DNA of 64,000 nucleotides, taken from the NCBI RefSeq assembly GCF_947500255.1, contig NZ_CANMRL010000001.1, positions 1,426,001-1,490,000 on the forward strand. The letters run 5' to 3'. The DNA comes from an uncultured Psychroserpens sp. (lineage in GTDB: Bacteria > Bacteroidota > Bacteroidia > Flavobacteriales > Flavobacteriaceae). The position numbers were made by a program, and so were the translations under genes. The notes beneath the pieces are model-generated. The model did not search any database and was not told the origin of the DNA. It saw only the letters and a list, made by a program, of their open reading frames with translations. Shown here in pieces: positions 26,484-28,129 of this stretch (position 1 is its first letter; each line of letters opens with the position of its first letter).

Positions 26484-26523
26484 AAAAAAGCGCAATTCAA
26501 AAATTTGGATTGCGCTTTTTCTC
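26484..26523 (+). terminator. Intrinsic terminator of sucAB
   Basis: AAAAAGCGCAATTC-AAAAATTTG-GATTGCGCTTTTT forms a strong stem followed by T residues. It closes the sucAB operon and separates it from the minus-strand array. Confidence 0.9.
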
Positions 26524-26548: not shown

Positions 26549-26659
26549 CTAAAAAAAATTTACAAGAATATTTATTGATATAATTAAAATGGCACTAAAT
26601 ATCAAGCCCGCAATAAAGATCTTGTTTGTAAGGCTTTGTTTGTTTTTCATCGTTTCCAT
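26549..26659 (-). CDS. Possible 36-aa single-helix membrane peptide
   Basis: This is a short ORF, below the ORF track's limit. It starts METMKNKQSLTNK, a polar, positively charged head (a second in-frame ATG lies at codon 4). It then runs KIFIAGLIFSAILIISINIL, a hydrophobic helix of about 20 residues, and ends VNFF. It is on the same strand as the small RNA array and lies just after its last unit, whose terminator has a weak T-run, so read-through from that unit could feed it. No promoter box was found. It may be a real small membrane protein or chance. Confidence 0.35.
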   Translation of the reverse strand: METMKNKQSLTNKIFIAGLIFSAILIISINILVNFF

Positions 26660-26691: not shown

Positions 26692-26790
26692 CAATAAAGC
26701 TCTGAGCTTATGAAGACACTCAGAGCCTTATATACCCTAATTAATTAATAGAGTTACTATAAAAAAATCCCTCTAATCTTAATAACTCTG
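26692..26790 (-). ncRNA. Small RNA candidate, array unit E (most diverged)
   Basis: The predicted start, taken from the promoter, is near 26790. The 5' end can fold as AGAGUUA paired with UAACUCU (26783-26789 with 26750-26756), enclosing an AGGGA motif. A terminator-like stem, GCUCUGAG with CUCAGAGC (26699-26726), ends it, with a weak U-run. At about 99 nt it is longer than units A-D. No conserved reading frame was found. Confidence 0.5.
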
Positions 26791-26793
26791 ATG

Positions 26794-26841
26794 TAAAATT
26801 CGCCATTAATCACATACCAAACAATACGTAGTTCTACGTAT
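26794..26841 (-). promoter_or_regulatory. Operator-promoter of array unit E
   Basis: The palindrome ATACGTAG-TT-CTACGTAT is at 26824-26841. On the minus strand a -33 TTG overlaps its edge, 20 nt follow, then GAATTTTA (26794-26801), the only unit that deviates at the last base of the -7 box. Confidence 0.65.
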
Positions 26842-26887
26842 ATTTCATGTTTTAAATGTTAAAGTTTTCTTTTTTGACGACTTTTCA

Positions 26888-26961
26888 TAAAAAAAGCTCT
26901 GAATTAATAAAAATCCAGAGCCTTTATTCCTTTTTTCCAAAAGGAAATTGATTAATAGCAT
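26888..26961 (-). ncRNA. Small RNA candidate, array unit D
   Basis: The minus-strand sequence after the promoter opens with GCUAUU, as in units A-C. It has an 8-bp hairpin (UUCCUUUU with AAAAGGAA, 26926-26948) whose loop shows GGAA, then a terminator, GCUCUG...CAGAGC followed by UUUUUUU. The length is about 74 nt. Confidence 0.6.
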
Positions 26962-26963
26962 GA

Positions 26964-27011
26964 CAAACTTCGGTAATATTATGATGCGAAACAATACGTA
27001 GTTCTACGTAT
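26964..27011 (-). promoter_or_regulatory. Operator-promoter of array unit D
   Basis: The palindrome is at 26994-27011, the -33 TTG at 26992-26994 (complement), a 20-nt spacer follows and the -7 box is GAAGTTTG (26964-26971). Confidence 0.7.
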
Positions 27012-27042
27012 ATTTTGTTTAATCTAGTTTTTGTTGGATTTA

Positions 27043-27116
27043 AAAATGAAACCCTGAATTGAAATTCAATCCAGGGTTATGGATGATTTGATTCTTCCAT
27101 TAAGAATAATAGCGAT
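27043..27116 (-). ncRNA. Small RNA candidate, array unit C
   Basis: The RNA opens near GCUAUU and then forms AUUCUU-AAUGG-AAGAAU (27091-27107), with AUGGA at the loop. A terminator-like stem, AACCCUG...CAGGGUU (27050-27078), ends it, followed by a broken U-run. The length is about 74 nt. Confidence 0.6.
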
Positions 27117-27118
27117 AC

Positions 27119-27166
27119 CAAATTTCAACAATAAAATGAATAAAGTCAATACGTAGTTCTACGTAT
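27119..27166 (-). promoter_or_regulatory. Operator-promoter of array unit C
   Basis: The palindrome is at 27149-27166, the -33 TTG at 27147-27149 (complement), a 20-nt spacer follows and the -7 box is GAAATTTG (27119-27126). Confidence 0.7.
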
Positions 27167-27177
27167 TCTGAAAAAAA

Positions 27178-27250
27178 ACAAAAAACTCTAAATCAATGAA
27201 GATTCAGAGTTTTCTAGTTAATTAAATTCTCCCTATAAGAATAAATAGCT
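27178..27250 (-). ncRNA. Small RNA candidate, array unit B
   Basis: This unit is nearly identical to unit A: GCUAUUUAUUCUUAUAGGG, a 5-bp hairpin AUUCU...AGAAU (27226-27242) with AGGGA, the spacer UUUAAUUAACUA, and a 12-bp terminator stem (27182-27213) followed by a long U-run. The length is about 73 nt. Confidence 0.65.
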
Positions 27251-27254
27251 AACA

Positions 27255-27302
27255 CAAATGTCTGTATTTCTCTTAATAGAAACAATAGGTATATTTACCT
27301 GT
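27255..27302 (-). promoter_or_regulatory. Operator-promoter of array unit B (variant operator)
   Basis: The operator here reads CAATAGGTATATTTACCTGT. It aligns without gaps to the other copies, and its outer C and G are swapped on both arms, so AGGTA-TATT-TACCT is still a palindrome. The -33 TTG, the 20-nt spacer and the -7 box GACATTTG (27255-27262) are kept. Confidence 0.65.
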
Positions 27303-27312
27303 TTTTTGTAAA

Positions 27313-27383
27313 ATAAAAAACTCCAAATCAATAAAGATTTAGAGTTTTAGTTAATTAAATTCTCCCTACAAGAATAAATAGCT
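27313..27383 (-). ncRNA. Small RNA candidate, array unit A
   Basis: The RNA would open near AGCUAUUUAUUC and form AUUCU-UGUAGGG-AGAAU (27359-27375) with an AGGGA motif. The spacer UUUAAUUAACUA leads to a 13-bp terminator stem (27317-27348) and UUUUUU. The length is about 71 nt. Its promoter overlaps the end of the response-regulator gene. Confidence 0.65.
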
Positions 27384-27387
27384 GAAA

Positions 27388-27435
27388 CAAATATCAGCAT
27401 TAAATCTCATGGAGTCAATACGTAGTTCTACGTAT
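27388..27435 (-). promoter_or_regulatory. Operator-promoter of array unit A
   Basis: The palindrome is at 27418-27435, the -33 TTG at 27416-27418 (complement), a 20-nt spacer follows and the -7 box is GATATTTG (27388-27395). The operator centre would sit near -42.5 from the predicted start, a usual site for activators that touch polymerase. The stop codon of the upstream response regulator lies inside the palindrome. Confidence 0.7.
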
Positions 27436-28063
27436 ATTTTGATAAAAATTCTTCATGCTCTTTAGCATACAAAACAATGCTATTAGCTTTCGATTCAAGT
27501 TTTAACTTTGTTCTGATATTACTTTTATGTTTTTCAACTGTTCGGTCTGAGATAAATAAAACACTTGCAATTTCTTTAGCAGTTTTATTTTCGGCAATGA
27601 GTTTGAAAACCTTCATTTCAGAGTCGGTTAATGTTTTTAATTCATCAGGTGTTTCTTTTATTTCGAGGTATTCGATCAACTCAGGGCTAAAATAAGAGGT
27701 TTCTTGAAGCACAGATGCGATACAATTTTCAATTTCTGCTATAGCAAACTCTTTGAGTATATAACCGTAAATACCTAATGACTTTGCTTTATTATAGATA
27801 TCCTGACTCTTCTCAAAAGTGATAATTATGATTTTAGTATTAAGGTTAAAGGTTTTGCATTTTTCGGCAACCTCTAGACCAGTAAGCATAGGCATTTGAA
27901 TATCTAAAATTGCAATATCTGGTTTGTGCGCATTAATAAGAGTTAGCGCTTCTTTACCGTTTTTTGCACTCGCGATGACATTAAATTGCTTTTCTAAAAG
28001 GAAGTCATTTAGACCTTTAAGAATTAATGGATGATCGTCTGCTATTATAATTGACGTAGACAT
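27428..28063 (-). CDS. LuxR/NarL (FixJ)-type response regulator
   Basis: A 211-aa two-domain regulator. The receiver domain (residues 1-120) has the acidic pair Asp9/Asp10 in ADDHP, the phosphoacceptor Asp54 in ILDIQMP, Thr82 and Lys104. The C-terminal LuxR-type HTH (about 146-200) contains LTDSEMKVFKLIAENKTAKEIA and ISDRTVEKHKSNIRTKL. Receivers of this type are phosphorylated by a histidine kinase, but none is in the window, so it is an orphan here. Five 7-2-7 palindromic sites lie directly downstream, the first overlapping its stop codon. NarL-family proteins bind such sites, so it is the leading candidate to control the array. Confidence 0.95.
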   Translation of the reverse strand: MSTSIIIADDHPLILKGLNDFLLEKQFNVIASAKNGKEALTLINAHKPDIAILDIQMPMLTGLEVAEKCKTFNLNTKIIIITFEKSQDIYNKAKSLGIYGYILKEFAIAEIENCIASVLQETSYFSPELIEYLEIKETPDELKTLTDSEMKVFKLIAENKTAKEIASVLFISDRTVEKHKSNIRTKLKLESKANSIVLYAKEHEEFLSKYT

Positions 28064-28129
28064 TGGGCTATTAATCTGAGGGATTGAAGTCTAAAGATAA
28101 CGAGTTTTGTTAATGTAAAGAAATAATTC

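Follow-up and report, generated by a model that had tools for sequence, protein, structure and literature searches.

Mostly downstream of a LuxR/NarL-type response regulator (RR), genomes from 80 of 237 sampled genera of Flavobacteriaceae, a large family of mostly aquatic bacteria, carry matches to a repeated unit that appears to be a small-RNA gene. The units form a tandem array that the RR probably activates and whose RNAs probably lower expression of the RR in turn. The circuit was recognised in a 64-kb stretch of a Psychroserpens genome (the whole of the DNA analysed, hereafter the window). The array, its promoter geometry, its conservation and its linkage to the RR rest on sequence comparison. 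In the absence of transcript data, transcription, RR binding, activation, pairing and repression are inferred, and we place the probability of this reading at roughly 0.7.

The RR gene (27428-28063, minus strand) encodes a receiver domain (PF00072, E 2e-26) and a GerE helix-turn-helix domain (PF00196, E 6e-15), and its product is 100% identical to that of P. luteolus. Directly behind it on the minus strand lie five units, named A to E in the order of increasing coordinates, with operator starts 170, 155, 136 and 133 bp apart. Each consists of a palindrome, a TTG at its edge, a spacer of exactly 20 nt, a GAnnTTT(G/A) box, and a non-coding body of 67-96 nt ending in a terminator. Four of the operators are the perfect 16-mer TACGTAGAACTACGTA, while that of unit D is degenerate (CAGGTAAATATACCTA). 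The window contains 8 matches to TACGTAN4TACGTA with up to 2 mismatches, against 1.64 expected. The operator of unit E (27419-27434) overlaps the RR stop codon and is followed by the -7 box GATATTTG (27388-27395) and sRNA E (27316-27382), with the GCTATTTATTCTTGTAGGGAGAATT hairpin and a terminator. Unit D comprises its operator (27286-27301), the box GACATTTG (27255-27262) and sRNA D (27181-27249), which is of the same type as E. In unit C, the operator (27150-27165) and the box GAAATTTG (27119-27126) precede sRNA C (27042-27113), whose AATGGA hairpin was seen only in this genome and its nearest relative. Unit B has its operator at 26995-27010, the box GAAGTTTG at 26964-26971, and sRNA B (26891-26959), with GCTATTAATCAATTTCC..AAAGGA hairpin and terminator. 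Unit A has its operator at 26825-26840, the box GAATTTTA at 26794-26801, and RNA A (26694-26789), which carries a GAGGGATT loop and a weak terminator. The putative transcript starts are 27382, 27249, 27113, 26959 and about 26789. RNA A may also be the leader of a 36-codon ORF (26549-26659, minus strand) for a small one-helix hydrophobic peptide, METMKNKQSLTNKIFIAGLIFSAILIISINILVNFF, which is conserved in the array loci. This ORF is followed by its own terminator (26485-26520, minus strand; AAAAAGCGCAATCC..GCGCTTTTTT), an inverted repeat that is 94% complementary, and then by sucB on the other strand.

The first-pass annotation of the window, which described five small-RNA units of identical promoter geometry and inferred selection on promoter and RNA structure, is confirmed in the first respect and supported in the second. 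However, two of its details are wrong. Units A and B, described as near-identical, are alike only in their promoter half (80% over 51 nt), and their bodies are different RNA types. Nor is E the diverged unit, as D and E are of the same type (75% over 102 nt) with C related, and A is the odd one out. Units E and D (with C related) have a 5′ GCTATT(A/T)AT and a hairpin with the loop UAGGG, whereas B has GCTATTAATCAATT and a UCCUUU/AAAGGA hairpin. The annotation also did not note the putative feedback sites in the RR leader, the membrane peptide or the lost kinase discussed below.

Counting the window's own, 27 genomes of the genus and family with the RR orthologue were compared, and all have units behind it. 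Of 81 units, 78 have the box exactly 20 nt after the TTG position and 79 have the TTG itself, whereas the box motif has a frequency of only 0.0067 per position in the window. The stems of the E-type RNAs are held in 96.4% of cells, with 10 of 17 pairs changed on both sides, a result reached by 0 of 500 shuffles. This covariation is driven mainly by the terminator (9 of 11 pairs), while the loop hairpin is conserved with mostly one-sided changes, and the result for the B-type is weaker. Of the 81 bodies, 43 have no ATG ORF in the first 75 nt and only 4 reach 24 codons.

A covariance model of the E-type unit, searched over 400 Flavobacteriaceae genomes, found matches in 123 genomes. Of the 30 best loci, 28 have an RR orthologue (46-100% identity) directly upstream, and nearly all lie beside the same aspartyl-protease and sucB genes. 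Arrays range from one unit to nine matches, the latter in locus L094 (G393:C1:1237800-1241800; L, G and C numbers denote loci, genomes and contigs), where four of the tandem units are near-identical copies, indicating recent amplification of an sRNA gene. Among 247 class-level genomes only one marginal extra hit appeared, itself in the same family. No Rfam family reaches its gathering score in the array, the only match in the whole window being a tRNA, and none was found in 15 related loci. A permissive search of the array returned neither Flavo-1 nor 6S-Flavo, and sub-threshold hits such as Atu_C9 are terminator look-alikes.

Across the 400 genomes, with the RR called at E 1e-55, 111 have both RR and array, 12 the array only, 42 the RR only and 235 neither. 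In L054 the perfect operators, and in L058 all operators, share a changed centre (AAAGTT, AACGTT), as expected if one trans-acting protein reads them. The operator is centred about 43 bp upstream of the putative start and abuts a -33 element that is TTG here and often TTT in other genera, which fits class II activation by the RR. It remains possible, although unlikely, that the palindrome is bound by another regulator or works as a repressor site, the RR being only a neighbour and possible target. At least two genomes (L144/G087, one contig, and L143/G245) kept intact operators and units after losing the RR from the locus, so either a second activator exists or the loss is recent, and many LuxR-type paralogues exist in these genomes. 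Against this stand the strong co-occurrence, the position of the operator, and the single origin suggested by the RR tree, in which all array-bearing RRs lie on one side of one branch (support 88/52; 86% of bootstraps).

The RR-only relatives examined (L131, L133-136, L138) gave no model hit and show no comparable unit between operator and peptide gene. In all six, the RR is followed by a related palindrome (TACGTG..ACGTA) and a small hydrophobic-peptide gene of the same design, in the same chromosomal slot before sucB. Where the upstream gene was read (L140, L142), the RR is preceded by a TPR-histidine kinase. This kinase is missing from the array loci, and no good homologue was found in the window genome, the best hit being only 25% identical over the TPR part. 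Thus, the array probably arose once between RR and peptide gene, and the RR lost its kinase neighbour, although this ordering is an inference from the tree and synteny. The peptide gene would then be the older output of the RR. These outgroups raise the alternative that the units are cis-acting leaders or attenuators of the peptide genes, with terminated leaders as by-products and extra units as duplicated leaders that lost their ORF. In L058 and L073/L132 individual units are indeed each followed by such an ORF, and unit A has a weak terminator before its own. However, most units have no ORF behind them but keep exact promoters, 5′ ends and strong covarying terminators, L094 amplifies RNA units, and L143 keeps a unit but has no peptide. 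Moreover, a cis leader does not explain the complementary sites in the RR mRNA. This alternative is considered improbable, but it may be the evolutionary origin of the array.

The RR's own leader in the window reads AATCCCTCAGATTAATAGCCCA-ATG. Within it, GATTAATAGC (28067-28076, minus strand), 3 nt before the ATG, is the exact complement of the first ten bases of RNA B (GCUAUUAAUC). Further upstream, TCCCT (28079-28083, minus strand) is the complement of AGGGA in units A, D and E, and its context AATCCCTC is the exact complement of GAGGGATT in RNA A. Still further upstream is TATCTTTA (28092-28099, minus strand), the probable -7 box of the RR's own promoter, which is also among the over-represented 8-mers. 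In an unbiased k-mer ranking over RR leaders of 40 genera, k-mers from the two sites come first: TAATAGC occurs in 18.3 genera against 0.7 in dinucleotide shuffles (maximum 3), TCCCT in 21.7 against 3.0, and both in 10.3 against 0.12. Their order and position differ between genera (for example g230 and g189), which suggests repeated gain rather than mere inheritance. Leaders of the adjacent protease gene contain TAATAGC in 1 of 36 genera and TCCCT in none of 36. Nevertheless, about half of the genera lack an exact TAATAGC in the RR leader, and pairing of sRNAs with their own genome's leader is no better than with those of other genera (p 0.17). The latter is unsurprising given the near-invariant seed, but it means that the proposed feedback rests on site enrichment.

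The best reading is that the units are tandem paralogous genes for trans-acting sRNAs (67-72 nt for E, D, C and B; 96 nt for A), each with its own RR-activated promoter. Their two recognition elements, the 5′ end GCUAUUAAU and an AGGGA loop, would pair with UAAUAGC and UCCCU just before the RR start codon and lower RR translation, so that the circuit limits itself and copy number sets dose and gain. The variant units (B, C, A) and further mRNAs with the same sites would extend the regulon. Genome-wide, TCCCT-N(2-14)-TTAATAGC occurs 638 times against 156 for the reversed control in array-bearing genomes (372 after subtracting every array hit), but 451 against 443 times in array-less genomes (Mann-Whitney p 4e-9). 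These comparisons are not corrected for shared ancestry, and some extra hits may be unlisted sRNA copies rather than targets. Exact reverse complements of the E-type core TCCCTAAGAACTAATTAATAGC were found away from the main array (G382:C1:511228, G313:C1:547924, G294:C3:494898, G064:C1:126831, G217:C140:169450 and 172086), and are probable dispersed second copies of the sRNA. In Psychroserpens, the complementary site lies at the putative 5′ ends of mRNAs for a family of secreted proteins (L206, L210, L180; ..AQSGIYESYAIL..), a candidate trans target. A conserved intergenic sequence, TCCCTATGATTAATAGC (or TCCCTAATTAATAGC), complementary to both seeds, also lies just before a terminator and behind genes judged Crp/Fnr-like by sequence inspection (L204 about 1274-1290, G000:C2:233973-233989; L201, G000:C1:684247-684261). 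Similar sites recur in about ten Psychroserpens genomes, and may represent a sponge RNA or 3′-UTR target.

The RR class and the E-type hairpins, whose UAGGG loop has highly conserved bases and is repeated along the array and again behind the small ORF, could instead suggest titration of an RNA-binding protein, as in GacA-RsmX/Y/Z, where a NarL/FixJ-class RR with a palindromic upstream site probably likewise drives several short RNAs with GGA-type loops. However, no CsrA was found in 20 genomes including the window's own (controls positive), which excludes a Gac/Rsm-type CsrA sink. RRM_1 proteins were not found in the 8 genus genomes searched, although one order-level genome and the Bacteroides control were positive, and no Hfq was found in 12 genomes (controls positive). 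Furthermore, B-type RNAs have no UAGGG loop, the single-stranded 5′ end is at least as conserved as the loop, and RR leaders carry complements of both. Titration is considered unlikely.

The general logic of the circuit is known, while the RNA family and its genomic arrangement appear to be new. Literature searches limited to open-access papers found no description of such an array. Listeria LhrC1-5 (PMC4132741) are likewise five paralogous short sRNAs with their own promoters; all need one response regulator (LisR), as is only inferred here, and they have additive copies and a repeated short recognition motif. They belong to another phylum, with a different RR class and sequence, and their CU-rich motifs pair with mRNA, whereas here AGGGA is predicted to pair with UCCCU, the RR gene is directly upstream with its mRNA a predicted target, and a membrane-peptide gene is included. 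Vibrio Qrr1-5 (PMC2680268) are several sRNAs under a response regulator, in a loop in which an activator of the sRNA genes is itself repressed by them, an arrangement that is only inferred here. The RNA is unrelated, however, and Qrr action probably depends on sigma-54 and Hfq, whereas here the promoters are of the flavobacterial TTG/TAnnTTTG type. The streptococcal csRNAs of CiaRH (PMC8186281) are five similar sRNAs from the strongest promoters of an RR regulon, two of them in tandem in S. sanguinis, but with a direct-repeat operator (TTTAAG-N5-TTTAAG) and unrelated RNA. Within the same phylum, the 14 paralogous FopS/GibS sRNAs of Bacteroides (PMC11697453) share a common 5′ seed that binds near start codons, but are not described as an RR-linked array and are associated with the RRM protein RbpB. 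In the same family, 85 newly described Rfp RNAs of Flavobacterium psychrophilum, including Rfp18, were mapped by transcriptomics (PMC9723704), and no mention of an RR-linked array was found there, without comparison of the RNA sequences themselves.

Trans-acting sRNA control in Bacteroidota, many of which lack Hfq and CsrA, is little understood, and a single-locus family of this kind would offer a clean genetic model of how sRNAs work without known chaperones, how tandem duplication tunes a circuit and how sRNA genes arise from a leader. It would also give many marine flavobacteria an annotated RNA family where they now have none. More tentatively, the system may be family-wide and independent of Hfq, CsrA and RRM proteins, with an orphaned RR held in check by its own array through the two short seeds. 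In this view amplification of units (up to nine) tunes the circuit, the 'anti-array' sequences after Crp/Fnr-like genes act as sponges, and the array grew out of the promoter-leader of the small membrane peptide.

Within the array, the palindromes do not occur without promoter boxes and terminators. Elsewhere in this genome the palindrome also occurs at 7 sites, 2 of which have the exact 20-nt geometry in front of a protein gene (L005 1501-1547 and L007 1501-1547; a 278-aa putative membrane protein and a 272-aa protein without Pfam match). These are candidate further members of the RR regulon and suggest a small mRNA regulon as well. Pfam gives no confident function for other genes behind the operator. 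Lastly, Flagellimonas/Muricauda relatives of the RR (44-48% identity; L025 4659-4710, L028 and L029 4642-4693) end in a terminator-like hairpin that itself contains TACGTA repeats (TACGTACCCC..GGGGTACGTATTTTT).
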